37,949 bases of DNA from Acidimicrobiaceae bacterium (GCA_003134515.1 PLBM01000043.1:194-38142), one strand, 5' to 3'; shown: positions 3,985 to 37,558, numbered from the stretch's first letter. Translations and numbers: made by a program. The notes: a model not told the origin generated them from the letters alone.

Positions 3985-6191
3985 GAGGTCTTGTTCTGGC
4001 CCGGCAACGAGCGAAACGCGTCAAAGACGCCGTCAACCCCTTTGAGTGCCGCCAAAAGACTCGACAGATGCACCGGGTCGGCGAGCTCGACATCAAAGAT
4101 CATGCGCACGATACGCGCCCCCGACGTCGTGGAGCTGCTCGAGATGATATTGAGGTGGTACTCCGCGACGACTTTGGACACATCGAGCAGCAGACGCGAG
4201 CGGTCAAAGGCCATGATCTCCAGGACCGCTCGGTACTGACCACCCGCGGAGCCGTCCCACTCCACGTCGATAATTCGCTCACCAAGGCGCTGGGCCAACG
4301 CCACGGCATTGGAGCAGTCATCACGGTGCACCGACACGCCGCGGCCCTGGGTAATGAAACCCATAATGCTGTCACCGGGCACCGGCGAACAGCAACGCGC
4401 CAGATGAACCATGACGTCGTCGAGCCCTTCAACGTAAATCCCCGCCGTGCGGCGCGAGGTGCGATACGCGCGCGGCGCCTTGGCCACGGTTGTGGGCATC
4501 TGTTCGGCGTCGCCGCCACGCAACTCGCGGTCGAGTCGCTGCACGACCGCGTGTGCTGAGATCTGATCGCTGTCAATCGCCATGAAGAGTGCGTCGTGGT
4601 CTTCTAAGTTCATCGACGTGATGACCGCGTCGAGGGCGTCCGAGGAGAGCGATGTCGCGATGGGCAGGCCTTCTCGGCGAAGGGCCTTAGTCAGTTCCTC
4701 GCGACCACCCTCGATGGCGTCGTCGCGACGCTCGCGCTGGAACCATTGGCGAATCTTGGACTTGGCTCGAGACGATTGGGCGATATTCAGCCAATCGCGT
4801 GAGGGACCGGCGTTGTCGTTCTTATTCGTGACGATTTCGACGACGTCGGCCGAGCGCAGCGCGGTGTCGAGTGGCACCAAACGGCCGTTCACCTTGGCAC
4901 CCACGCAGTGGTGGCCGACCTCGGTGTGCACCGCATAGGCGAAGTCAATGGGCGTCGCCCCTTCGATGAGGGGGATCACGCGGCCCTTAGGAGTAAAGAT
5001 ATAGACCTCGTCCTGGCCGAGGTCGAGCTTCAATGCCTCTAAAAAGGCGATGGGGTCGTTCTCCTCTTGGTCGACGTCGGCCAATCGCTGCATCCAGGCC
5101 ACCTCCTTGGCCGAGGCGCCCTCTTTGTAACTCCAGTGAGCGGCCACGCCGAACTCGGCTCGCCGGTGCATCTCATGAGTGCGTATTTGAACTTCGACCG
5201 ACTTGCCACGTGGACCGATAACGGTGGTGTGCAGCGACTGATAGAGATTGAACTTCGGAGAGTTGATGAAGTCCTTAAAACGACCCTGGACCGGCGACCA
5301 CAGCGCGTGAATCGCCCCCAATGCCGCCCAACAGTCGCGCTCGTCTTCGACGATGAGCCGCAGCCCCACCAGGTCGAAGATATCGTCGAACTCCTTGCCG
5401 CCGACCACCATCTTTTCGTAGATACTCCAGAAGTGCTTCGGTCGACCACGCACCTCAGCCTTGATTCCAAACTCGTCGAGCTTGGCCGAGAGCGTCGACA
5501 TCACTTCACGCAGGTAGGCCTCGCGTTCGGGCTGGCGCGCGGCGACCATCTGTTCGATCTCGGCGTAACGCTTGGGGTGCAGCGTGGCAAAACTTAGATC
5601 CTCGAGCTGCCACTTCACCTGTTGCACGCCGAGTCGGTGGGCCAAGGGCGCGTAGACGTCGAGTGTCTCTTGGGCGATAGCGCGCTGGCGATGCATGGGC
5701 ATCACCGAGATGGTGCGCATGTTGTGGAGTCGGTCGGCCAACTTGATCAAGAGCACGCGCCAGTCCTGGGCCATGGCGATGAACATCTTGCGGATGGTGG
5801 CGGCCTGCTGAGCCTCCTTCGAGTCAAACTCGAGGCGGTCAAGCTTGGTGACCCCGTCGACTACCGCCGCCACTTGAGCACCGAACTCCTTGGCCAGCCA
5901 CTTCGTCGTGACTCCAGTGTCTTCCACGGCGTCGTGCAACAAAGCGGCCGCGATCGTAGTCTCGTCGAGACCCAGATCGGCCGTAATCCCGGCTACCGCG
6001 ATGGGGTGGGTGACGTAGGGCTCGCCCGTTCGGCGCAACTGACCCTCGTGGGCGTTTATGGCGGCAATTCCCGCTCGACGAATCAGGTCCACGTCGCCGT
6101 CGACGTGGTGCTCGTTAAAGCGCGCAATCAGGCGCTCAATCGAGCTCAGCAGCACCGGGTCGGCGGTGGAGCGTGAAGTGAGGCTAACCAT
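3981..6191 (-). CDS. relA: Bifunctional (p)ppGpp synthetase/hydrolase RelA/SpoT family (HD, synthetase, TGS, ACT)
   Basis: 736 aa; HDAVEDTG (HD), GRFKDFINSPKFNLYQSLHTTVIGP (synthetase), VYIFTPKGRVIPLIEGATPIDFAYAVHT (TGS), C-terminal ACT-like. ATGA overlap with hisS. Confidence 0.95.
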   Translation of the reverse strand: MVSLTSRSTADPVLLSSIERLIARFNEHHVDGDVDLIRRAGIAAINAHEGQLRRTGEPYVTHPIAVAGITADLGLDETTIAAALLHDAVEDTGVTTKWLAKEFGAQVAAVVDGVTKLDRLEFDSKEAQQAATIRKMFIAMAQDWRVLLIKLADRLHNMRTISVMPMHRQRAIAQETLDVYAPLAHRLGVQQVKWQLEDLSFATLHPKRYAEIEQMVAARQPEREAYLREVMSTLSAKLDEFGIKAEVRGRPKHFWSIYEKMVVGGKEFDDIFDLVGLRLIVEDERDCWAALGAIHALWSPVQGRFKDFINSPKFNLYQSLHTTVIGPRGKSVEVQIRTHEMHRRAEFGVAAHWSYKEGASAKEVAWMQRLADVDQEENDPIAFLEALKLDLGQDEVYIFTPKGRVIPLIEGATPIDFAYAVHTEVGHHCVGAKVNGRLVPLDTALRSADVVEIVTNKNDNAGPSRDWLNIAQSSRAKSKIRQWFQRERRDDAIEGGREELTKALRREGLPIATSLSSDALDAVITSMNLEDHDALFMAIDSDQISAHAVVQRLDRELRGGDAEQMPTTVAKAPRAYRTSRRTAGIYVEGLDDVMVHLARCCSPVPGDSIMGFITQGRGVSVHRDDCSNAVALAQRLGERIIDVEWDGSAGGQYRAVLEIMAFDRSRLLLDVSKVVAEYHLNIISSSSTTSGARIVRMIFDVELADPVHLSSLLAALKGVDGVFDAFRSLPGQNKTS

Positions 6192-6445
6192 GGCCTCAGT
6201 CTACCGGCGCGTTCGCACATGTTACGGCGTGGTGATGCTGGCATTGACTCTTCGACCTATCACGAGCAACCATGTTTGCGCTCCGCGCCCCTCGACTTAC
6301 CGCACAAAGCTTTGGCGCGAAGTTTTGCTTGGCGACACGAACTTTATGTGTGTCCAATCAACCGCAGCGTGGTCAATACTCGTCAAAAACTCGTCCACCT
6401 CGGACCATCAACAGTGTTCGGCGATACGCTTGAATATCTTGACGA

Positions 6446-7912
6446 ATGCCCATGACTTCCATCGCTGACGTCCTCGGAGGGCGCTATCGTCTCGTCCGAC
6501 TGCTCGGTCGAGGGGGTATGTCTGATGTCTATGAGGCAGTGGACGAGCGCGACGGTACCTCCGTTGCCCTGAAGATCGTACGATCCGGCGACCCGGAATT
6601 CGTTCGGCGACTAACCCTGGAGGCCCAGGCCTTGGAGCGTTTCGAGCACCCGGGCCTCATCCGACTGCTGGACACCGGACTGGCCGGAGATGACGCGTAC
6701 TTGGTCATGCAGTTCGTCGACGGACCGACACTCGCCGAGTCACTCCAAAAGGGATCACTCAGCGCTCCGACAACGGCAGCGCTCGGGGCGAGAATGGCCG
6801 ATGCCTTGGCGTACGTGCACTCCCAGGGCGTAGTGCACCGTGACGTGAAACCGTCCAATATCCTGCAATCGGCCAGTGGCGACGCTTGGCTCGGGGACTT
6901 CGGCATCGCACAGCTCCATGACACGACGACGCTCACCGCGGCGGGGACAACCTTGGGAACCGTCGTGTACATGGCCCCGGAGCAACTCGAAGGTGGCCGC
7001 GTCGGTCCAAGCGCCGACATCTGGTCATTGGGCATTGTGTTGCTCGAATGCCTGACGGGACGGCGCGTCTACCAAGGCTCGCCGAGCGAGATCGTCGCGA
7101 GTCGAATGGCTGGGCCGGTGCCGGTACCAAAGGACTTACCGGTGCCATGGAAGATGGTTCTCGGTGGAATGCTTGATGTTCAACCCGAGCAACGCTTGAG
7201 CGGCGCTCAAGTCGCCGCCCTTTTGTCGACATCGGTATTCGCCACTCCGTGGCGAGCATCAAAGAACGATGAGACCGAACGCTTGTCGTCAGTGTCGGCG
7301 GAGGATTTCACGATACTCATGCCGGGCGAGGTCGTCGCCGGGACAAGATCCGGCGACGACACCCTCGTTGAAACGCCCCCGGAGCGCGTCACGACACCGC
7401 AACGAGGCGTCGCGTCTCACCGCTTTTCGCCGTGGCTGGTGTCAGGCGGTGTCATTGCCGCCGCGGCCGTCGTCGCCGCAATCTTCGTGTTCGCTTCGAA
7501 CCCTTCGAAAGCGCCAACCACGACTACACAGGCATCAACCACCACCACGTCAACCACCATCCTTTCCAGCTCCAGTGCACTCGCCCACTTGATTAGTGAT
7601 TTGGCGTCGGGCCAGACCACCGGTAGCGTCGACACTGGCTCTCAGCAAAGCATCTCTCAAGACGCCAACCAGTCACTTTTCGATGCCGAGTCGGGAGATT
7701 TGACTCAGGCCGGAAACGACCTCCAACAAGCGGCGACCGTCGTCGCCAACGGTGTACAAGGCGGACAAATCAGCCAACGCGAGGGCGCGATTCTTCAGAG
7801 TGATCTATCGGCGCTCGCCCTCTCGTTAGGCGTCAACGCGCCTAACGTAACGACAACGACGGCGCCTACATCACCGGGCAATAATGGCCACGGTCACGGC
7901 AAGGGCCACTGA
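6446..7912 (+). CDS. Membrane-anchored Ser/Thr protein kinase, PknB-like, without PASTA repeats
   Basis: 488 aa; GRYRLVRLLGRGGMSDVYEA, VALKIV, VVHRDVKPSNIL, LGDFGIAQL, MAPEQLEG; TM helix, then Thr-rich linker and extracellular helical region ending GHGHGKGH. Confidence 0.92.
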   Translation: MPMTSIADVLGGRYRLVRLLGRGGMSDVYEAVDERDGTSVALKIVRSGDPEFVRRLTLEAQALERFEHPGLIRLLDTGLAGDDAYLVMQFVDGPTLAESLQKGSLSAPTTAALGARMADALAYVHSQGVVHRDVKPSNILQSASGDAWLGDFGIAQLHDTTTLTAAGTTLGTVVYMAPEQLEGGRVGPSADIWSLGIVLLECLTGRRVYQGSPSEIVASRMAGPVPVPKDLPVPWKMVLGGMLDVQPEQRLSGAQVAALLSTSVFATPWRASKNDETERLSSVSAEDFTILMPGEVVAGTRSGDDTLVETPPERVTTPQRGVASHRFSPWLVSGGVIAAAAVVAAIFVFASNPSKAPTTTTQASTTTTSTTILSSSSALAHLISDLASGQTTGSVDTGSQQSISQDANQSLFDAESGDLTQAGNDLQQAATVVANGVQGGQISQREGAILQSDLSALALSLGVNAPNVTTTTAPTSPGNNGHGHGKGH

Positions 7913-7928
7913 GTTGACTCAATGGCCC
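7903..7928. terminator. Possible bidirectional hairpin between convergent kinase and secF genes
   Basis: GGGCCA-c-TGAGT-tg-ACTCA-a-TGGCCC near-perfect inverted repeat at the convergent junction; no clear T-tract. Confidence 0.55.
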
Positions 7929-7933
7929 ACGTC

Positions 7934-9076
7934 CTAGCGGCGCTTCGGCTTTCGCGCGCGAGGTTGAATCGTCCCACCCATGATGCCCGAGCGCGTCGGA
8001 CGAGCGCCCGTTATCTTGCCCTCAGTCAATAAGCGCGCCGCGCTCGTAGCCGTCAAAGTCTGACGCTCGGATCGCTGATTAACGCGCGCGGCGAGTTCCT
8101 TGTAGCGAGGTTCGCGCTCTTTCATCCAGGCCAGGATCGGGCTCGCAATAAAGATGGACGAGTACGCCCCGCTCATGAGACCAACGAAGAGCGCCAGGCC
8201 GTAGTTCTGCAGGGTCGTCGCACCTAAGAGGTCCGCACCAATGAGAAGTACCGCGAGCACCGGCAAGATGGCGACCAGCGATGTATTGATCGATCTCGCC
8301 AGCGTCTGGTTCATCGAAAGATTGACCATCTCGCTGTAGGTGAGGTCCCCGCCCTTTAGCACGCCCTGGGTGTTATCGCGCACCCGGTCAAAGACGACCA
8401 CTGTGTCGTAGAGCGAGTAACCCAGAATCGTCAGGACGGCGATCACCGTATCGGGCGTGATCTGGAAACCAAAGAGCGAGAACACTCCGACCGTGACGAG
8501 CAGGTCGTGCACCATGGCGATAAACGCGGCAACAGCCATCTTGGGCTCAAAGCGAATACTGATGTAAGCCACCACCGCGATGAAGAAAACGATGAGGGCT
8601 TCGATCGCCTTATTGGTGATCTGACCGCCCCACGTGGGTCCGACGTTGCTCGTGGACACCTGATTGTTCGTGGTATGAGCCACCTTCGCCATTGCGTCCA
8701 CCACGTTGGTGGTCAAGGTGAGCGCCTTTTTCTGGGAGAGTGAGTTGATGTTGGCCGTGACTTGATACGTGTCGGAACCCAACTTCTCCACTTTGGGATT
8801 CGTGAGTCCCGCCTTTTGTACCGCACTGGTCATGTGCGCAATCGACGTGTTCGGCGCGAGCACTTCCCAGGAGCTACCGCCCTTGAAGTCGATACCGAGA
8901 TTGAAGCCACGAATAGCCAGCGAGCCCATGCCCAGCACGATGATGATCACCGAGACGCTAAACCAGATCTTGCGCCGTCCCACGAAGTCAACGGTCGTGA
9001 GTCCATGGTAGAGACGACCGAGATGACCGTAGACCTTGGTGTCGGGAGGTGGCGCCATGTCGGTGTCGTTACTCAC
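7934..9076 (-). CDS. secF: Protein translocase subunit SecF
   Basis: 380 aa; FNLGIDFKGGSSWEV, ILGYSLYDTVVVFDRVRDN, multiple TM helices, directly downstream of secD. Confidence 0.95.
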   Translation of the reverse strand: MSNDTDMAPPPDTKVYGHLGRLYHGLTTVDFVGRRKIWFSVSVIIIVLGMGSLAIRGFNLGIDFKGGSSWEVLAPNTSIAHMTSAVQKAGLTNPKVEKLGSDTYQVTANINSLSQKKALTLTTNVVDAMAKVAHTTNNQVSTSNVGPTWGGQITNKAIEALIVFFIAVVAYISIRFEPKMAVAAFIAMVHDLLVTVGVFSLFGFQITPDTVIAVLTILGYSLYDTVVVFDRVRDNTQGVLKGGDLTYSEMVNLSMNQTLARSINTSLVAILPVLAVLLIGADLLGATTLQNYGLALFVGLMSGAYSSIFIASPILAWMKEREPRYKELAARVNQRSERQTLTATSAARLLTEGKITGARPTRSGIMGGTIQPRARKPKRR

Positions 9077-27493: not shown

Positions 27494-29533
27494 TTAGACC
27501 AACTCCCAGCGATGTCGCGACTCGACCAACTGATTGATGGCCGCGGCGGGCATGGGGCGGGCCAGGAAATAGCCCTGACCTCGTTGACAGCCCATTGCGC
27601 GAAGGTGCGCGAGTTGACTCTCATTCTCAATTCCTTCGGCGGTCACCGACAGTTTGAGCGCGTTCGCCATAGCAACGATGGCCTCGACGAGCGCGGTGTC
27701 CAAGGGGTCGGTGCCGAGTCCCTTTACAAAGCCTTGGTCGACTTTTAGTTCATCGATGGGGTAGCGCTTGAGGCGCCCGAGAGACGAGAATCCCGTGCCG
27801 AAGTCATCGATCGAGAGCCTGATACCGAGTGACTTGAGATCGGTGAAGGTCTGACCGAAGTAATTAACGTCGTCCATTAAGACACTCTCGGTCAGTTCAA
27901 AACAGAGTCCCTCACCGGAGAATTTCGTGCGCTCCAACGTTTTCTCGGTGACTTGCACGATGTCCGCCGCCATCATCTGAAGCACGGAGACGTTGACCGC
28001 GACGTTCATGTCGTGGCCGTCAGCGTGCCAGAGGGCTAATTGTGCGCACGCCTGCTCTACGACCCACGCACCAATCTCATCGATGAGGCCTATCTCTTCG
28101 GCGTAAGGAATGAACTCCGCCGGGTTTACTGATCCGAGTTCGGGATGATTCCAACGAAGCAGTGCTTCGGCCGACGCCATGTAGCCAGTCGCCAGATCGA
28201 CGATCGGCTGATAGTAGACGGTGAATTCGTTTTGCTCCAACGCCCGACGCAGTCCGACCATTAAGATCGCTCGTCGCTCCGACTTCCATCGAAGTGATTC
28301 ATCAAAGTATTCAATTTGATTGCCGTCTTGCTCTTTACCTCGAGCGACGCCTACTTCCGCGTCGCGCAGCAACTCCTCGGGCGTTGATTCCGCGGTGGCC
28401 ATGACCACGCCAAGGCTCGCGGTAACCAGGATTTGGTGACCCATATGGAGAAACGGTGCTCGAATCGTCTCGATCACCAGGCGCGCGAGCGAAGCGGTTT
28501 CAGATCCGGTGCTGTCATCACACACGATGATGAACTCATCCGCTCCGATACGAGCGACCGAGTCGGAGGGGCGAATCACCCCGAGTAGTCGTTGCGCGAC
28601 TTGACGAAGGAGCTCGTCGCCAAAGTCGTGCCCCAGCGAAGAGTTGATGAGCTTGAAGTGGTCGAGATTGAGCGAAATCACGCCCAGCCAAATGCCCTGG
28701 CGTTGCGCGCGGCCCTGTGCGTGTTCCAGACGACTGGTCAGTAGTGTTCGATTGGCAACTCCGGTGAGCGGGTCATGGAGACCCTGGAAATCTCGGTGCT
28801 CTTCGATGTTCTTTTGATCGGTGATATCGGGTAAGTGCGCGACGTAATGCAGTGGTTGACCGTCCTCGCCTCGAACGATCGACACGTACGCCGAGGTCCA
28901 CACGAAGGTGCCGTCGGGTCGAACAAAACGCTGTTGTTCGAGATAACCATCTTCACCACCCAAAATCTTTGCGATGACCACTTGCCAATTAGCTACGTCG
29001 TCAGGGTGGGTGTAGTCCGTCCACTGGCGCCCAATAATGGCGTTCATCGGCTGACCAATCAACTGACACGCGGCTTGATTGACGTGTTGCATCGTTCCGT
29101 CGAGTGCGACAACGATGGTGGCGATACCTGACTGGTCGAAGGTCAAATCACTGTGGGTTTCTAACGCCTTACTTTGGAACGTCGCCAGCGACTCAAAGAA
29201 TGACTGCACTTTGACGTCGTGATCAATGGGTAGCCCTAGAAGACGGTTCGCTTTCAGTTCATAGACGTTTCGACGCCCCTCGTGGTGGCGCTCTAAGTAC
29301 TTGTTTTCCACGAGGTCCGCCACGATGCCCTGGGCGGTTCGCTCGCTGATTTCCAAGGACGCCGCGATATCGCGGATACGAATTCTCTGATCGTTCGCGA
29401 TGAGAAGTAGCGCGCTACCATGCTTCGTCAAAAGGGGATAGTCCAGAACCTTGCCCATCAGAACTTCCTTCCTAGACATCGTTACAGCCAGATTAGTGCA
29501 AGAATCTGCACTTATCATAAAACCTGTTAGCAA
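27494..29533 (-). CDS. wHTH-PAS-GGDEF(degenerate)-EAL protein
   Basis: 679 aa; wHTH ALLLIANDQRIRIRDIAASLEISERTAQGIVADLVENKYLERHHEGRRNVYEL; PAS; VARIGADEFIIV; ASAEALLRWNHPE, ELTESVLM, IDDFGTGFSSLGRLKRYPIDELKVDQGFV, TAEGIE. Confidence 0.92.
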   Translation of the reverse strand: MLTGFMISADSCTNLAVTMSRKEVLMGKVLDYPLLTKHGSALLLIANDQRIRIRDIAASLEISERTAQGIVADLVENKYLERHHEGRRNVYELKANRLLGLPIDHDVKVQSFFESLATFQSKALETHSDLTFDQSGIATIVVALDGTMQHVNQAACQLIGQPMNAIIGRQWTDYTHPDDVANWQVVIAKILGGEDGYLEQQRFVRPDGTFVWTSAYVSIVRGEDGQPLHYVAHLPDITDQKNIEEHRDFQGLHDPLTGVANRTLLTSRLEHAQGRAQRQGIWLGVISLNLDHFKLINSSLGHDFGDELLRQVAQRLLGVIRPSDSVARIGADEFIIVCDDSTGSETASLARLVIETIRAPFLHMGHQILVTASLGVVMATAESTPEELLRDAEVGVARGKEQDGNQIEYFDESLRWKSERRAILMVGLRRALEQNEFTVYYQPIVDLATGYMASAEALLRWNHPELGSVNPAEFIPYAEEIGLIDEIGAWVVEQACAQLALWHADGHDMNVAVNVSVLQMMAADIVQVTEKTLERTKFSGEGLCFELTESVLMDDVNYFGQTFTDLKSLGIRLSIDDFGTGFSSLGRLKRYPIDELKVDQGFVKGLGTDPLDTALVEAIVAMANALKLSVTAEGIENESQLAHLRAMGCQRGQGYFLARPMPAAAINQLVESRHRWELV

Positions 29534-29614: not shown

Positions 29615-30346
29615 TCACGTAGCGAGGAACTCCGCGATGACTAACGCTGCTGCTTCGGGAAAATTGTCAACCGTCGCCACGCCCAATGGCGACGGGACGT
29701 CTCGATACTCACCTTGGCGCACTCGTATGACGGGCACACCCACTCGCTGCGCAAGGGCTACGTCTTTATCGACGCGATCACCAATGATGAGCGACTCGCT
29801 CACTTCGAGACCCAGCGCCCGAGACAGCGCCTCTAACCCCACAGGATTGGGCTTTCGACACGACCGGCCTCCGAGTTCGTCCGTGATCACCACTGCGTCG
29901 AAGTAGTGCGCCACACCGAGGGACTGTAACTTCGCGCGCTGTAGGTCGGGATTGCCGTCGGTTAGACACGCAAGGAGGGTCCGACGAGAGAGGGCATCGA
30001 GGCTCTCAATCACCCCGTCATAACACGACATGGAGAGTGGCCGAAAATTGATGAAGGCCTCAACCAGCGGACCCCTTGCCGTGAGAACGTCGTTCGACGA
30101 ACATCCCAATGCCTCTAGCGTGTCGTCAATCGTTTTTCCAGTGTCCGAGCCACGCTTGAGGACGGACGTAAAGGCGTCTGCGAACGTGTTTCGATCGAAG
30201 CCAAGTGACGTCGCTCGCTCCGCGACCGCGCCAATAGCGCCGACAAGGAACGAGCGTTGAGCGTAGAGCGTGTCATCGAGATCCACGACCACTACTCCGC
30301 CGCTACGCGACCCCACCACTACCCACTCACCACGGCAGCACGCCAT
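29615..30346 (-). CDS. HAD-superfamily hydrolase
   Basis: GVVVVDLDDTLYAQRSFLVG, CLTDGNPDLQRAKLQSLG, SCRKPNPVGLEALSRALGLEVSESLIIGDRVDKDV. True start may be a GTG slightly downstream. Confidence 0.88.
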   Translation of the reverse strand: MACCRGEWVVVGSRSGGVVVVDLDDTLYAQRSFLVGAIGAVAERATSLGFDRNTFADAFTSVLKRGSDTGKTIDDTLEALGCSSNDVLTARGPLVEAFINFRPLSMSCYDGVIESLDALSRRTLLACLTDGNPDLQRAKLQSLGVAHYFDAVVITDELGGRSCRKPNPVGLEALSRALGLEVSESLIIGDRVDKDVALAQRVGVPVIRVRQGEYRDVPSPLGVATVDNFPEAAALVIAEFLAT

Positions 30347-31496
30347 TCGTGAAGTCGGGTTCTGGCAACGTCAAGAGGGCGTCAGACTCCGAACTGGAGA
30401 GAATCCGGGCTACTCGCAGCCCGGTCGTACCATCGCCGTAAGGACAGGCCAGGGCCGCGATTCGAGACGGTGCCTCACCCGTGGTGAAGCCACGGGCCGC
30501 CTCCAGCGCGGCGGCCACGCCACGATCGTGGGCGAGCGAGACAAGCACGGCCGAACCGTTCTCCACTCCTTCCCATCTCGGTGTCGAGCCACGCAAGATG
30601 ATGACGGGAACACCAAAGTACGCGGCCTCTTCCTGAAGACCTCCCGAGTCGGTTACGACAAGTCGGGCGTGGCGCAAGCGGTCGATGAATTCAAAGTAGC
30701 CAAGCGGCGGGCACCGAGCGACCTCGTTGGAGAGTTGCGCCTCAGCGCCCGCATTTTCGAGCTGTTGCTCTGTTCTTGGATGAACGGGAAAGAGTACCGG
30801 ACCCACGTGTAGTGAAAGTTCGTTGATCAACGACGTCAATCGGCGCAGTCGGATCGGGTCGTCAACATTGGTGGGCCGATGCGCCGTGACGAGAACGCCG
30901 TCGCGTTCATTAAGTGGGACGCATCCGTATCCGCTCGCCACCAAGGAGTCGATCGCCGAGTTGCCCACGACGAAGATCCGCTCGCTCGAGATGCCCTCGC
31001 GCAGCAGAAAGTTCCGCGAGCGCTCGGTCGGCGCAAAGTGCATCGAGGACCCCGCGCTGGCCACGCGACGATTTAACTCTTCAACGCTTCGCTCGTTAAA
31101 ACTTCGAAGTCCGGCTTCGAGATGGACAAAGGGAACTGAGTTTCGCCGGGCCGCCAAAACGTACGCGGGCACGGTTTGGGTGTCACCCAACGCCAGCACG
31201 ACGTCGGGTTCATATTCGCGAACCAGTCGCATCGCGCTGGCATGAATCTCTCCCACGCGTTGATCAGGATCGATCGAGAGCACGTTCGCCACGTCCACGG
31301 AAAGTTCCAGCGCGTTCGCGATCTCACCACTCATGTTTGATGACGAGTGCTGACCCGTGTCGACCGTGACCACGTGGTGACCAACGTCGCGCAGCGCGCG
31401 CACGACCGGGGCGAGCTTGACTATTTCGGGACGGGTGCCAAAGGGCACGAGAATGCGGCGAGTCCGGTCTGCCGCGTTCTGCCCTCGCTCACTCAT
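30327..31496 (-). CDS. wecB: UDP-N-acetylglucosamine 2-epimerase (WecB family)
   Basis: 389 aa; ILVPFGTRPEIVKLAPVVRAL, DTGQHSSSNM, HLEAGLRSF, VTDSGGLQEEAAYFGVPVIILRGSTPRWEGVENGSAVLV. Confidence 0.92.
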   Translation of the reverse strand: MSERGQNAADRTRRILVPFGTRPEIVKLAPVVRALRDVGHHVVTVDTGQHSSSNMSGEIANALELSVDVANVLSIDPDQRVGEIHASAMRLVREYEPDVVLALGDTQTVPAYVLAARRNSVPFVHLEAGLRSFNERSVEELNRRVASAGSSMHFAPTERSRNFLLREGISSERIFVVGNSAIDSLVASGYGCVPLNERDGVLVTAHRPTNVDDPIRLRRLTSLINELSLHVGPVLFPVHPRTEQQLENAGAEAQLSNEVARCPPLGYFEFIDRLRHARLVVTDSGGLQEEAAYFGVPVIILRGSTPRWEGVENGSAVLVSLAHDRGVAAALEAARGFTTGEAPSRIAALACPYGDGTTGLRVARILSSSESDALLTLPEPDFTNGVLPW

Positions 31497-33931
31497 CAGA
31501 CACCACTCGTTTCAAAGATGTCTTCAAAGTACCGGGTCATGCGCACGCCGACGTCGAAGTACAGCGGCGCGATGCGCCGCTCGGGTTCGAGAATGGCTTG
31601 GAGGTACGCGCCCACCACATCCGCGCCGGCGGCCAAAGTCAACGGGAGGCCGCCGGAGAACCGTGGATTGAGCTCGATGATCGACACCGCGCCCGAAGGG
31701 TCGACCATGCCTTGAATGTTGATCGGTCCGGTGATCCCCGTCGCGGCCACCACCTCGGCGCACACGCGGGTGACTTCGATTGAATCGAAGGTCAGTCCCT
31801 TGACCGAGATTCCCCCGCGCGTCTCTAAGCGCCACCGTGGCACGCACGTCACCACTTGGCCGTTTCGATCGACCAAAACATCGGCCGTGAACTCCTCACC
31901 CATCAGACGCGACTGCGCGATGAGTTCTTTGTCGTGGCGCATGATCCGGCGAAGAACCCGACGGTCATCGACCAGAGCGAAACCACGACTCCCCCGACCG
32001 CGACGAGGTTTGACGATCCACGGACCCGGTAAACGTCGGCTACCCCGCGAGGTCGTCGCGGTCGGAGGGTGCGCAATGCCGTACTCCTCCATCGCGAAGG
32101 CAAAGGCGGCTTTATCGAGACACCGCGCCACCGCCTCGAGGTCGGGAATCCAGGTCTTACAACCAAGGTCACTGAGGTCCAATGCGATCGCGGCGAGCGG
32201 CGCGTACTCCTCGGCCACGGTGCAGATGAGGGCTTGCACCTTAGTAGCTTCAACAATTGAAGTGAGCCCATCGGCGAAACTCTCGTCGTCAAAGCGCGGC
32301 ACGACGCCCGTTTGAACACCGGGCAGTTGAAAACCGGCGGCGAAGGGATCGGCGTCGAGGGCGACGACGCTGTGACCCGCGAAGAGCAGGGCTCGAATCA
32401 CGGCCAGGCCGGCCGGACCTCCGGCGCCACTCACCGCGACTCGAAAGGGTCCCCCGCGCCCGACACCTCCGACGAACTGCGGTTCGGACAACTTCTCGAT
32501 CGCCAGTCGTTTACCGTGTCGGCGTTTACCGTTCGAATCTGAGCGCTCCGGTACGATCGGCGCGGACACGTTGAGTTCGGGCACGGACAGCACCTCCAGT
32601 CGATGGGACAAGAGCCACGCTCGTGCCCACAGACGTAGCGCCGCCACGCCCGAGTTCGAGACCGGTTCCCACTGGCGCTTGGCAATCGCCTCCACCAGGG
32701 CCTGAATAACGTAGTCGTCCTCTTCTTCCGCCGCGACGCTGAGCAACGAGTACGCGTGGTAAGCGAGACCCTGATCGCCCAACTGCGTCACGAGTCGGAT
32801 CTTGACAGAGGATCTGTCCGTCGTGCTCTGCAAGAGTCGTTGGCACTTTCTCTCTCGACGTTGAGCGAACGGTCCAGTGGCAAACCTCTTGAGAGCGAGC
32901 ACGTCGAATGGTGGCAACGGACCGACGCCCTCGATGACTCTTCGCGACGACCATGCCCGACACCATAAGAGCAGCGAAGCGGTGCGATCGGTGGTAACTG
33001 GATCGTGTGCGTGAATGAAGACGGCCCTCGCTAACGCGTCCAGCACGGTGAAGTCTTCCTCGAAGACCGCGAGCGCCATAAGCGACGCCCCCTGGGTTTC
33101 TAATCCGTTCGCGGAGAGTGTCGCGATGGCGGCACAGCGCTGTTCGACGTTGAGAAAGCCAATGCGAAAGTCAATCCGGTTGGACTCACGGCGTCGAGCC
33201 AGCCAACGGCGCGTTTTCGCTGGCACAAAGTAGCGAATCAGCCAGCCCGTCAACGATCGCCGATTCGAACGCACGCGCTGCACCGCCGGGATGCGGTACC
33301 CCAGCCCGGCGTGGGACCAGGATTCGGGGCGACGCGCGGTATGTCGCCCGTAGCGATCTTGTTCGGCCCGTTCAGCCGTTGGCAGCGTCAGATACAACAA
33401 CAATAAAAAGCCCAGCAGAGTGGCGACGAAATTCCATACCGTGCCAACCCAGTCGTGAAACAACAGCAACGCGCCACGGCCGAACCAGAGACCGGCGACG
33501 CTCGATGCGGCCATTCGCCCAAGATTCAAGACAAACAGCATCGAGGCCGACACGATGTAGGCGACCACGGTATGGCTTCGCCGCCCTCTAAGAACAGCGA
33601 TGGCGAGGGTGCCCAGCGCGAGTATCCCCATGAGCGATGAGCACGAGGGCGAGATGAACGCCAAGATCGGCCGATGGCCCGGCGAGGCAATAAGCAGATT
33701 GTCACCGACCGCCAGGGTGACCCCACGAGCGCCAAAGAGACGAAACAGCCACGCCAACGAATCCAGCTCGACCCGGCGCATCGGGCCAATGAGCGTTTCA
33801 AAGAGTACGAGATAGCCAACGGTCAGAGCCCACAGTTCGCCCAGCACCGCCCACCGACGGCGCCGCGTGCCCGCCCTCGTCGACGCTCCCTGGTCAATGT
33901 CGTGGCGCGCCCGGGGATCGATCGTCGTCAT
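31496..33931 (-). CDS. Fusion protein: exosortase/archaeosortase-like membrane domain, helical linker, ATP-grasp domain
   Basis: 811 aa from MTTIDPR. N-terminus has four TM helices with SPSCSSLMGILALG (Cys), VLNLGRMAA (Arg), LLFHDWVGTVWNF (His). C-terminus VAVSGAGGPAGLAVIRAL...PWIVKPRRGRGSRGFALVDD...INIQGMVDPSGAVSIIELNPRFSGGLPL is ATP-grasp. Confidence 0.85.
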   Translation of the reverse strand: MTTIDPRARHDIDQGASTRAGTRRRRWAVLGELWALTVGYLVLFETLIGPMRRVELDSLAWLFRLFGARGVTLAVGDNLLIASPGHRPILAFISPSCSSLMGILALGTLAIAVLRGRRSHTVVAYIVSASMLFVLNLGRMAASSVAGLWFGRGALLLFHDWVGTVWNFVATLLGFLLLLYLTLPTAERAEQDRYGRHTARRPESWSHAGLGYRIPAVQRVRSNRRSLTGWLIRYFVPAKTRRWLARRRESNRIDFRIGFLNVEQRCAAIATLSANGLETQGASLMALAVFEEDFTVLDALARAVFIHAHDPVTTDRTASLLLWCRAWSSRRVIEGVGPLPPFDVLALKRFATGPFAQRRERKCQRLLQSTTDRSSVKIRLVTQLGDQGLAYHAYSLLSVAAEEEDDYVIQALVEAIAKRQWEPVSNSGVAALRLWARAWLLSHRLEVLSVPELNVSAPIVPERSDSNGKRRHGKRLAIEKLSEPQFVGGVGRGGPFRVAVSGAGGPAGLAVIRALLFAGHSVVALDADPFAAGFQLPGVQTGVVPRFDDESFADGLTSIVEATKVQALICTVAEEYAPLAAIALDLSDLGCKTWIPDLEAVARCLDKAAFAFAMEEYGIAHPPTATTSRGSRRLPGPWIVKPRRGRGSRGFALVDDRRVLRRIMRHDKELIAQSRLMGEEFTADVLVDRNGQVVTCVPRWRLETRGGISVKGLTFDSIEVTRVCAEVVAATGITGPINIQGMVDPSGAVSIIELNPRFSGGLPLTLAAGADVVGAYLQAILEPERRIAPLYFDVGVRMTRYFEDIFETSGV

Positions 33932-33938
33932 CACGGCT

Positions 33939-35471
33939 CTAGGTCGACTTGACTCGGGCGAACGTGCGCGAGCCGACCGCACTGATTTCGTCGAGTCCAC
34001 CCGAGCGCATCACCAAGCCAGTGGTGGCCATCAAGGCGCCTTCACTGGACTTGGTCTCCACGCGGGCGGCGTCGCTCGTGCGGCGACGCATCAGGGGATT
34101 ATTGACAATGGTCGTCACCGAGTAGGACGAACCCACCTCGCTTGAACGCGTGGTCTTCACCCACGAGTACGGGCGACCGAGCATGCCGTCGACGTACGCC
34201 CAGGTCGTAATGACGATGGACAGCGCAAAGCTCGGCAGGAAACCAATCAGGTGCCACGCGCCGCGCCGTTCGACGCGGCCGAGTAAGAGCCCCACCGTGA
34301 GTTCGGCCAAGGGGCCCAAGAACAACAACAAGGTGAGGGGCAGTAGCGCCACCGCCGGGATGTTCCCGATGCCAAAAAGTCGCGCGGCCGTGAGCACAAT
34401 GCCCAGGCCCGAGAGAACTGGAATGTGATAGATGAAGAGGAACATCACGAACTCGGCCTTTTCGCCCCAACTCAAATTTGGGCTGCGCAACGTCGGGATG
34501 AGGTAGTCCCGCGTGCACTTTTGGTGGCCCCGAGCCCATCGGTAGCGTTGCTTCCAAAATCGACGAGCGACGAGCACGGCCTCTTCGAAGTCGACGGCCG
34601 TGGGGTCGTAGCGAACGCGTCCGCCGGCTAACAGCACGCGAATCGTTAAGTCGGTGTCCTCGGTCACGGTCTCGGTGTTCCAGCCACCCAGTCGCACCAA
34701 GGTCGAACGGCGTACGGCGCAGTTGGCCCCGCCGTACGCCGGGAGTTCGTAAAGCGCCTGGCGACCGTACTCGTTGACGAGGTAGCCAGAGAGAAAATCG
34801 ATGAACACCACTCCGGCGAGTTGGCTCTCGTTGCCGTTCCTAATGACGCAACGACCCATCACACAGTCGACTCTCTCGTCAAGAAAATGACGTACCAGGC
34901 GGCGCAACACGTCACCGGCCGGTTCGTGATCGGCGTCGAACACGCAGATAATCTCGACGTCGACGAGCTCGAGCGCCGCGTTCAACGCACCGGACTTTCC
35001 CCCACCGGCCCCCGAGGGACGGTGGACCACCGTCAGTCGGCCGTCCAGTTCCGCCCAGTAGTCGAGCCTTTCGCCGGTGCCGTCGCTCGACCCGTCGTCC
35101 ACGATGATCAGTTGCAAACTCTCCGCGGGATAGTCCAGTCGAAAGAGCGCTCGCACGAGCTTGTCGACCACCAAGACTTCGTCCTTGCACCCCACAAAGA
35201 CCGCCACCGTGGGCACGTAGTCGCTCAAGCCCACGTCCGCGGCGTAGAGGTCTTTTTCCACCCAGCGCGCCGCCGAGATCGCAAAGCCCAAATGGCGGAC
35301 GAAGAAGAAGAAGAACACCACCATGAGACCCCAGGCCATAAACGCGGCGGTACGTCCAAGGCCAAAGTAGGCAATGAATCCCGCCGTAATGGCGGCGTAG
35401 ACCAGAATCGCGACGAAGTGACTCTTGGGCCGACCAGATGACGTCGGGCGTACGGCGCGCATCAATCGCAA
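33939..35471 (-). CDS. Processive GT2-family membrane glycosyltransferase (BcsA/PgaC/HAS-like)
   Basis: 510 aa; IIVDDGSSDGTGERL, CVFDADHEP, VTEDTDLTIRVLLAGG, RRFWKQRYRWARGHQKC (QxxRW), flanking TM helices. Confidence 0.92.
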   Translation of the reverse strand: MRLMRAVRPTSSGRPKSHFVAILVYAAITAGFIAYFGLGRTAAFMAWGLMVVFFFFFVRHLGFAISAARWVEKDLYAADVGLSDYVPTVAVFVGCKDEVLVVDKLVRALFRLDYPAESLQLIIVDDGSSDGTGERLDYWAELDGRLTVVHRPSGAGGGKSGALNAALELVDVEIICVFDADHEPAGDVLRRLVRHFLDERVDCVMGRCVIRNGNESQLAGVVFIDFLSGYLVNEYGRQALYELPAYGGANCAVRRSTLVRLGGWNTETVTEDTDLTIRVLLAGGRVRYDPTAVDFEEAVLVARRFWKQRYRWARGHQKCTRDYLIPTLRSPNLSWGEKAEFVMFLFIYHIPVLSGLGIVLTAARLFGIGNIPAVALLPLTLLLFLGPLAELTVGLLLGRVERRGAWHLIGFLPSFALSIVITTWAYVDGMLGRPYSWVKTTRSSEVGSSYSVTTIVNNPLMRRRTSDAARVETKSSEGALMATTGLVMRSGGLDEISAVGSRTFARVKST

Positions 35472-35476
35472 CAGTT

Positions 35477-36175
35477 CTAGCCCGACGTCGTCAGCCGTTG
35501 CAGGATCTCTTCGGCCGACGCGTGCACGTCAATGTAATCGTCGAGAATCGAACGAGGCGAGCCCATGTCCCAGACGAAGCGCACGGGCACAAAGGCCTCG
35601 GCCAGAACGACGCGCGCGAACGCGCCCCAGTGGCGAGCCGAGGCCGCGATCGCGTCAAGTTGGACCGACTCAGCGTTTACTTGGGACTTGTGGCACGTCA
35701 GGGCCGAGAGCTTGGCGCCGAGATGGTCACTGATGTCGACGAAGATCGTTGGCTCAAATCGGGTGGTCGACGGCGACTGATAGTAGAGAATTCGAGACGT
35801 GCGTCGTCCCGCCGAGACGGTAGCCGCTGCCACGATTCGATGGTCTTGGTGGGCGTCATCGGGCGCGTGCACGTAGATGACGTCGGGGCGCACCGCGTCC
35901 ATGACGGCTTCGATGCGATCAATCGTCGTGTGATCGTCGGGAATCCCGCAGTCCACAAAGCCACCCCAGTAAAGCGATGCCCCCAGACTCTTGGCCGACG
36001 CCTCTTGCTCGAGTTCACGGAGATTGCCCAAGTAATTTCTCGACTGCTCGCCGCCGGACATGACGAGAATGCTCGTCGAATGACCCATCGCGCGGTGCGC
36101 CGAGAGCGCGCCGGCGCAACCTAGCTCCACGTCGTCGGGATGACTTCCAATTGCGAGCACACTTTTTACAGTCAC
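35477..36175 (-). CDS. PIG-L/LmbE family N-acetylglucosamine deacetylase-like
   Basis: GTG start: VTVKSVLAIGSHPDDVELGCAGALSAHRAMGHSTSILVMSGGEQ; HAPDDAHQDHRIVAAATVSAGR. GTGA overlap with the upstream gene. Confidence 0.9.
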   Translation of the reverse strand: MTVKSVLAIGSHPDDVELGCAGALSAHRAMGHSTSILVMSGGEQSRNYLGNLRELEQEASAKSLGASLYWGGFVDCGIPDDHTTIDRIEAVMDAVRPDVIYVHAPDDAHQDHRIVAAATVSAGRRTSRILYYQSPSTTRFEPTIFVDISDHLGAKLSALTCHKSQVNAESVQLDAIAASARHWGAFARVVLAEAFVPVRFVWDMGSPRSILDDYIDVHASAEEILQRLTTSG

Positions 36176-36675
36176 GGTGTTGCCTTCCTTTTCGCGGTGC
36201 GTCGAATCACGACCACACCGATAAGAACTCCGAGGCCGATCGCGATGACGAGACTCAGGCCTAAGGGATCGACCGGGAGCGATGAGCCAGAACACGCAGT
36301 ACTCGTCGCCGTCGCCGTCGCGGATTGACCTTCCACCGTCCAGGTGATCGATTGGTTGTGCGCCAGCACATTAAAGGCGTTCGTCACCGTACCGGTAATG
36401 AAACTCGTTGGCTGGTTGCCGTCGTACCTCGACGGAGTGACCTGATTGGAACTCCCGTCGGGGTAATTGGCGGCCGTTCCGGAATTTGAGTAGCCAAAGT
36501 ACGCGGTGAAATTGTGACCAGTATCCAGCGTCACGCACGTCACCGTGGGCACCACGTTCGCCGTAGCGGCGGCGGCTGGCGGTGACGCCGCGATGAGCGT
36601 CGCAGCCAACAGCAACGCCGTGACGCCCAAGAGACTGGAAACCTGCTTCGTTGGCGACAACCAGACTTGACTCAT
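36172..36675 (-). CDS. Secreted protein with C-terminal tripartite sorting-like tail; candidate exosortase substrate
   Basis: 167 aa; signal peptide (LLGVTALLLAATLIAASPPAAAA), central TAYFGYSNSG...NQPTSFITGTVTNAFNV region, tail LPVDPLGLSLVIAIGLGVLIGVVVIRRTAKRKATP (motif + TM + basic). Confidence 0.72.
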   Translation of the reverse strand: MSQVWLSPTKQVSSLLGVTALLLAATLIAASPPAAAATANVVPTVTCVTLDTGHNFTAYFGYSNSGTAANYPDGSSNQVTPSRYDGNQPTSFITGTVTNAFNVLAHNQSITWTVEGQSATATATSTACSGSSLPVDPLGLSLVIAIGLGVLIGVVVIRRTAKRKATP

Positions 36676-36958
36676 GTGTCTTCTCTCTGAAGACCCGGCC
36701 CAGATGGCTAGAGGTTCGTGATCTAACAGTTACTTAATCTCCTCATCCTCCTAAGTCCCGTTAGTTTCATTTCCCTCTGGAATAATCGCTCCAGGGCCAA
36801 AATGAACAATTGGAACTACGTGGTGTACTAGTAAACGGCGCCGTCCCTTCGACGTCTCGCCAATACTCAGGGTTTACGCAGGAATGGTTCAGAACCAATG
36901 CGAACTCCGAGGTAGTTTCTACATTGAAGATTCCCTACAAGATCGTCGGAGGTGTACC

Positions 36959-37558
36959 TTGCGCGCACGAATTCATCCCTTGACCATGACCCTCTGGAGC
37001 AGAGTCGTCAGTTCTTCCACGGCGTTGGCGATCGTCGCGGCGCTCGGCGTCTGGGGCCTCTCGGGACCGACGGTCTCGTCCGCTTCGACGTCGTCGTGCA
37101 CGACGTCGGACGTGGTGGTGTGGCTCAACACCTCGGGCAGCGGCGCGGCCGGAAGCGCCTACTACAACCTCAATTTCACCAATCTCTCGTCACACTCGTG
37201 CACCCTTGAGGGATATCCCGGCGTGTCAGGACTCTCGCTCGCGAGTACGCAACTCGGCAGTTCCGCCGCGCGCAACGCCGCGCACACCGCGACGCTCATC
37301 ACGCTGGCTAGTGCGCATACCGCGACGGGGCTGGCCGCGTCGAACAGCCACAACTCGGCCACAGCAATTCTTCAAATAACTGACGTGAGTAATTTTTCCG
37401 CTTCGATTTGCGGTCAAGTCACAGCCGCGGGACTACGCGTCTATCCCCCGGGTCAAAGCGTGGCGAAGGTGATTCCCTACCCCTTCGTGGGTTGCTCGAA
37501 GAGTGGATCACGTTACCTACACATCGAGGCCATCCAGAAGTACGTCGCGACGCAGTGA
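36959..37558 (+). CDS. Secreted DUF4232-like protein
   Basis: Signal peptide; LNFTNLSSHSCTLEGYPGVSGLSL, YPPGQSVAKVIPYPFVGCSKSG. GGAGG at 36948-36952 precedes an in-frame TTG at 36959; ATG at 36986 is an alternative. Confidence 0.7.
   Translation: MRARIHPLTMTLWSRVVSSSTALAIVAALGVWGLSGPTVSSASTSSCTTSDVVVWLNTSGSGAAGSAYYNLNFTNLSSHSCTLEGYPGVSGLSLASTQLGSSAARNAAHTATLITLASAHTATGLAASNSHNSATAILQITDVSNFSASICGQVTAAGLRVYPPGQSVAKVIPYPFVGCSKSGSRYLHIEAIQKYVATQ

Follow-up and report, generated by a model that had tools for sequence, protein, structure and literature searches.

Gene Content of the Locus

The window analyzed here, a 37,949-nucleotide (nt) stretch of DNA from an Acidimicrobiaceae bacterium (GCA_003134515.1 PLBM01000043.1:194-38142), derives from a soil actinobacterium whose draft genome measures 2.0 Mb and is 83% complete. 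It contains an operon in the order SURF, PIG-L, GT2, fusion, WecB, HAD, with all genes on the minus strand. The features are as follows.

36172..36675, minus strand: SURF, a secreted 167-residue candidate substrate, three genes upstream of the fusion in the same operon
36259..36279, minus strand: LPVDPLG sorting-signal motif of SURF, in which P134 and G139 are invariant in the family
35477..36175, minus strand: PIG-L type de-N-acetylase (PF02585, 82.3 bits), with a GTG start and a 4-nt overlap (GTGA) with the SURF stop
33939..35462, minus strand: GT2 glycosyltransferase with motifs DAD, TED, and QRYRW; PgaC/IcaA-like, below cut-off
31496..33931, minus strand: 811-residue fusion gene encoding exosortase, HEAT-like, and ATP-grasp domains; ATG at 33931, stop at 31496
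33377..33859, minus strand: exosortase/archaeosortase domain of the fusion, residues 25-185, with four transmembrane (TM) helices and the TIGR04178 match
33641-33643, 33515-33517, and 33455-33457, minus strand: triad codons for C97, R139, and H159, respectively
32582..33256, minus strand: all-helical HEAT-like domain of the fusion (MID), residues about 226-450, with the signature RQWEPVSxxxxAALRLWA
31517..32446, minus strand: ATP-grasp ligase domain of the fusion, residues 496-805, with conserved K607, K641, E680, E753, and N755
30327..31496, minus strand: WecB, a non-hydrolysing UDP-GlcNAc 2-epimerase (TIGR00236, 245.9 bits against a cut-off of 210.15)
29615..30346, minus strand: HAD phosphatase (PF00702, PF13419), which follows WecB in relatives too

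The original prediction had described the 811-residue reading frame as an exosortase-like membrane domain fused to a cytoplasmic ATP-grasp domain; the reading frame was confirmed, the residues, codon positions, and motifs given for it all proved correct, and both ATP-grasp motifs were found in it. The HEAT-like third domain between the two, as well as SURF, are additions of the present analysis. WecB and the fusion share 1 nt, at the start of the former and the stop of the latter. The nearest NCBIfam model of the PIG-L protein is BshB1, with a score under that model's cut-off, and the three GT2 motifs are those that we take to mark processive synthases.

A scan of genome contigs retrieved 22 relative loci, across which this gene set is strongly retained: GT2 and PIG-L occur in all 22, WecB and HAD are found in 21, the remaining contig being cut short, and SURF is present in 20. 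The operon has further neighbors. A PAS-GGDEF-EAL-like protein (window 27494-29533, minus strand) adjoins it, and EAL-like reading frames occur no more than a few kb away from it in the Geodermatophilus loci L035, L042, L047, and L051, a possible sign of c-di-GMP control. On the other side, upstream of SURF, a divergent secreted protein (window 36884-37558, plus strand) bears a DUF4232-type resemblance by eye.

A Three-Part Fusion Protein

The N-terminal domain of the fusion matches the TIGR04178 exo_archaeo model with 30.3 bits over residues 93-180, above the curated cut-off of 23, and in a whole-genome search the fusion is the sole TIGR04178 match in the draft (34.8 bits). The Pfam EpsH model, PF09721, gives the fusion protein 14.4 bits against a gathering cut-off of 25.7, and is passed by the relatives L031 (26.0), L039 (28.9), and L023 (30.7 bits). 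All three residues of the predicted Cys/Arg/His triad, C97, R139, and H159, are invariant in 30 of 30 aligned relatives, together with S98, N136, G147, G151, and F158. There is thus little doubt that the domain belongs to the exosortase/archaeosortase superfamily. Assignment to a named Xrt subtype was rejected, as the scores of 22.4 for XrtS and 13.2 for XrtR compare with NCBIfam cut-offs of 145 and 150 bits. The classical sortase family PF04203 was not among the Pfam hits of the fusion protein, and the exosortase domain found no useful match when its sequence was searched against the PDB.

Hydropathy analysis delineates four TM segments, and positive charge is found in the N-terminus, the loop joining TM2 to TM3, and the segment that follows TM4. 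By the positive-inside rule, this distribution would place the triad outside and the ATP-grasp domain in the cytoplasm, in agreement with the topology originally predicted. An AlphaFold2 model of the whole fusion, built from a 48-row alignment, has a mean pLDDT of 84.2 and comprises a helical membrane part with long helices and a beta element preceding C97, a HEAT-like block with pLDDT mostly of 75-94, and a confident ATP-grasp domain at residues 496-800; its pTM of 0.50 means that the mutual placement of the three parts is not fixed by the model. The HEAT-like domain is flanked by disordered linkers (residues 186-225 and 454-490), and no family was matched within residues 196-490 in the Pfam search of the protein. 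In relatives, this domain is also found fused to the exosortase or to the ATP-grasp.

The C-terminal domain passes the cut-offs of two ATP-grasp families, with matches within residues 604-785 (PF15632, 64.9 bits against 29.1; PF02655, 50.0 bits against 23.2), and is the sole PF02655 match in the draft genome. K607, K641, E680, E753, and N755 are conserved across 26 ATP-grasp rows. The PylC-like_N model yields 17.7 of the 27 bits required for the window fusion, and 27.8 for L035. A Foldseek search with this domain places 2pn1 at the top (TM 0.82 by target), followed by the L-amino-acid ligase 3vot, with PylC among the matches; we know of no established function for 2pn1.

More distant ATP-grasp homologues adjoin HAD or PIG-L genes in loci devoid of an exosortase, and the ligase chemistry is therefore not exclusive to sorting. 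In six such remoter homologues (L117, L118, L126, L128, L129, and L130), the exosortase is absent and a HAD phosphatase follows directly; the recurrent ATP-grasp/HAD pair may hint at a phosphorylated substrate.

Degenerate copies of the ligase form a separate class. In genomes G103, G123, and G154, the exosortase adjoins a HEAT-like protein carrying a degenerate ATP-grasp in which the residues matching E753 and N755 are lost, as is the lysine of VKP (alignment read by eye), and an intact ATP-grasp is also present, elsewhere or adjoining. Proteins joining MID to a degenerate ATP-grasp were observed at L067:219-2090(-), L073:7693-9420(-), L078:9895-11247(+), L081:5069-6559(+), and L082:7851-9650(+), three of the five adjoining an exosortase. 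Having lost the lysine and metal-binding residues, these proteins are candidate pseudoenzyme partners. Several of them, by eye, start with a hydrophobic segment ahead of the HEAT-like repeats, and their layout suggests that the HEAT-like domain may dock the ligase at the membrane. A further reading frame, L078:8430-9170(+), ends in a MID-like QWEP repeat and follows or overlaps a large membrane-protein reading frame (6160-8556); MID may be a docking module common to the cluster.

Fusion and Separation Among Relatives

The complete fusion is present in three further Acidimicrobiia metagenome-assembled genomes (L030, L031, and L032), with 85, 59, and 57% identity to the window protein, respectively. 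Geodermatophilaceae encode the exosortase and HEAT-like parts as a single protein, to which the ATP-grasp is also fused in L035 and L036 (G. pulveris and G. obscurus). In the other 16 Geodermatophilaceae loci the ATP-grasp gene is separate, and in 16 of 16 a start codon is placed such that exactly 4 nt are shared with the exosortase gene. Within the window's own order, exosortase and ATP-grasp reside in the same operon as split genes in G110, G040, G152, G259, and G154; another such split operon occurs in the same phylum (G475). The concern attached to the original prediction, that orthologues might be split, is thus borne out in part, as they often are. The suspicion that the fusion is a local or assembly artefact falls, because the split genes are adjacent, mostly with 4-nt overlaps, and two lineages carry the fusion. 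Nor did any other outcome named beforehand as refuting the prediction come about. A frameshift or artefactual origin was likewise rejected on its occurrence in four Acidimicrobiia genomes, including that of the window, and two Geodermatophilus species.

A tree of 21 concatenated exosortase and ATP-grasp sequences requires three parsimony state changes, from which it follows by parsimony that the Acidimicrobiia and Geodermatophilus fusions probably arose independently; one ancestral fusion that was then split repeatedly is the less parsimonious history. Patristic distances of the two domains correlate closely (r = 0.92 across 21 taxa).

At the level of the order, a census of 296 genomes found 26 TIGR04178 loci in 24 genomes; the present exosortase type occurs in eight genomes (G154 included via protein search), and the remaining loci are of other exosortase kinds without this ATP-grasp. 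Reciprocally, in a 298-genome sample of the order, close ATP-grasp homologues (at least 44% identity) occur in eight genomes, each with this exosortase, which is absent alongside the next-best homologues. In the drafts G103 and G123, the close homologue and the exosortase lie on different contigs.

SURF, a Probable Substrate

SURF carries an N-terminal signal helix (residues 17-28), followed by a beta-domain (41-128), a disordered stretch bearing LPVDPLG, a TM helix (140-163), and the basic tail RRTAKRK. The beta-domain is confidently modelled and contains two cysteines invariant in the family; searched against the PDB with Foldseek, SURF returned nothing at E <= 0.001, only generic beta-sandwiches. 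Its C-terminus constitutes a tripartite signal of LPxxxxG, TM helix, and Arg tail, and in Geodermatophilaceae the motif mostly reads LPxEGNG or LPxDGNG. From its genome context, SURF is the probable substrate of the exosortase. In other operons of this type, secreted proteins encoded near PIG-L or GT2 have at the C-terminus TPVPVGGIAGG, VTPIGAVGG, STVPVGAVGG, or TVVPVGTIGV, and then a TM helix with basic residues after it. An independent link between the SURF family and exosortases is provided by L064:2-673(+) (genome G178), a SURF-family protein encoded immediately upstream of another kind of exosortase, a 552-residue reading frame that has a C-terminal extension and is followed by a GT2; the signal of this SURF-family protein lacks LPxxxxG.

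SURF is single-copy in the genome. LPVDPLG-like signals elsewhere in the genome amount to one DNA match (contig C32), a reversed control pattern gave similar counts, and no reading frame of at least 50 residues at the C32 match reads LPVEPVG. In a phylum-wide search, the only full-length SURF match was in G381, where the stretch concerned has none of the operon genes; the remaining hits were to the beta-domain alone in larger proteins or were weak terminal matches.

A Proposed Anchoring Pathway and Its Rivals

Gene linkage and fusion support the coupling of sorting outside to ligation inside that the original prediction put forward; its chemistry, that is, the reactions, their order, and the acceptor, we infer as follows. 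WecB and PIG-L would provide an aminosugar bearing a free amine, to which the cytoplasmic ATP-grasp would join an amino acid or similar carboxylate. GT2 would then assemble and export a glycan bearing the aminoacyl-sugar. On the outer face, C97, assisted by R139 and H159, would cleave SURF at LPxxxxG to form a thioester, a step proposed because of the invariant Cys and the tripartite substrate. The aminoacyl-sugar amine would resolve this thioester, and an amide bond would then join SURF to the glycan. The ligase that makes the acceptor would be kept directly beneath the sorting enzyme, whether by fusion or by 4-nt-coupled co-translation. We give about even chances to the general proposition that one operon anchors a protein to a glycan and also encodes the enzymes that synthesize the acceptor. 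The stricter version, a bifunctional membrane machine whose cytoplasmic ATP-grasp adds an amino acid to an aminosugar and whose exosortase links a surface-protein C-terminus to that same amine outside, is held more tentatively, at somewhat short of even.

The same genes could also serve two unconnected ends. The exosortase would sort SURF, and the product of ATP-grasp, PIG-L, WecB, HAD, and GT2 would be a separate surface polysaccharide, to which SURF is no more than an associate; linkage and fusion would reflect co-regulation only. The exosortase family was reportedly first defined by its association with exopolysaccharide loci, with no known chemical coupling, and ATP-grasp homologues do accompany GT2, HAD, or PIG-L in exosortase-free loci. 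Yet the recurrent fusion or strict adjacency of exosortase and ATP-grasp in several lineages exceeds what co-regulation would need, and we consider this reading unlikely. More improbable still is an ATP-grasp product that is an aminoacyl lipid or peptide acceptor rather than an aminosugar. Lipid anchoring of this kind has been proposed for ArtA, with archaetidylethanolamine as precedent, and amino-acid ligases are among the fold neighbors of the ATP-grasp domain; the conserved partners, however, are the sugar enzymes WecB, PIG-L, and GT2, and a phospholipid gene is absent from the conserved set. That SURF is processed by a classical sortase, the exosortase-like domain having another role, is a weak rival with very little probability, since the one PF04203 sortase in the genome lies on another contig, SURF genes adjoin exosortases, and, LPXTG-like as the SURF signal is, the C-terminal signals of other operons (TPVPVGGIAGG, STVPVGAVGG) are without LPXTG.

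Returning to protein-to-glycan anchoring, the combination of a deacetylase, an epimerase, and a sorting enzyme fused or 4-nt-coupled to a ligase points towards one particular acceptor chemistry. The compound that receives bacterial exosortase substrates has been described as unidentified (PMC7468200); if true, a bifunctional machine making its own acceptor would identify the acceptor class. With a compact operon, one or two substrates, and culturable Geodermatophilus, this chemistry is open to a purified-enzyme and mass-spectrometry test.

Relation to Known Systems

What appears to be undescribed is the architecture, together with the operon type and the LPxxxxG/SURF pairing; the component enzymes all belong to known families. 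As the original prediction had supposed for the fusion, no description of an exosortase with ATP-grasp, Geodermatophilus, or PIG-L was found in the open-licence literature searched, which is not proof of absence. With the exosortase/archaeosortase superfamily, the fusion has in common Cys/Arg/His in TM helices, a partner protein with a tripartite signal, and a glycan-synthesis neighborhood; it differs in its added HEAT-like and ATP-grasp domains and in a signal of LPxxxxG or PVGxxG, not PEP. Its nearest named subtypes are XrtS and XrtR, far under whose cut-offs it scores. PRK12767/2PN1, the BL00235-type L-amino-acid ligase, and PylC share the fold and ATP/Mg residues of its ATP-grasp, which, unlike these ligases, is tethered to an exosortase via the HEAT-like domain.

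A functional parallel may lie in type IX secretion (T9SS), where mass spectrometry led to the deduction that the C-termini of cargo form amide bonds with 2-N-seryl or 2-N-glycyl aminosugars, in whose synthesis VimA and the putative deacetylase VimE take part (PMC7468200). If the model is right, the outcome is the same as that of the Wbp/Vim linking-sugar pathway, a C-terminus amide-bonded to an aminoacylated aminosugar, reached with an unrelated sortase and an unrelated aminoacylating enzyme in the absence of the outer-membrane secretion system. Amino-acid-modified sugars have also been proposed for exosortase loci with FemAB-like proteins, and in PEP-CTERM/XrtA systems a deacetylase and a predicted amino-acid-transferring enzyme likewise adjoin the exosortase (PMC7468200); the window operon employs PIG-L and ATP-grasp, which are not homologous to these, and its ATP-grasp shares a polypeptide with the sorting enzyme. 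In archaea, cleavage by Haloferax ArtA requires PssA and PssD, the presumed suppliers of archaetidylethanolamine; the genes are juxtaposed in Methanosarcina (PMC7157517). There, too, a sorting gene sits beside enzymes for a presumed amine acceptor, but the acceptor is a lipid, the genes are juxtaposed rather than fused, and ATP-grasp is absent.
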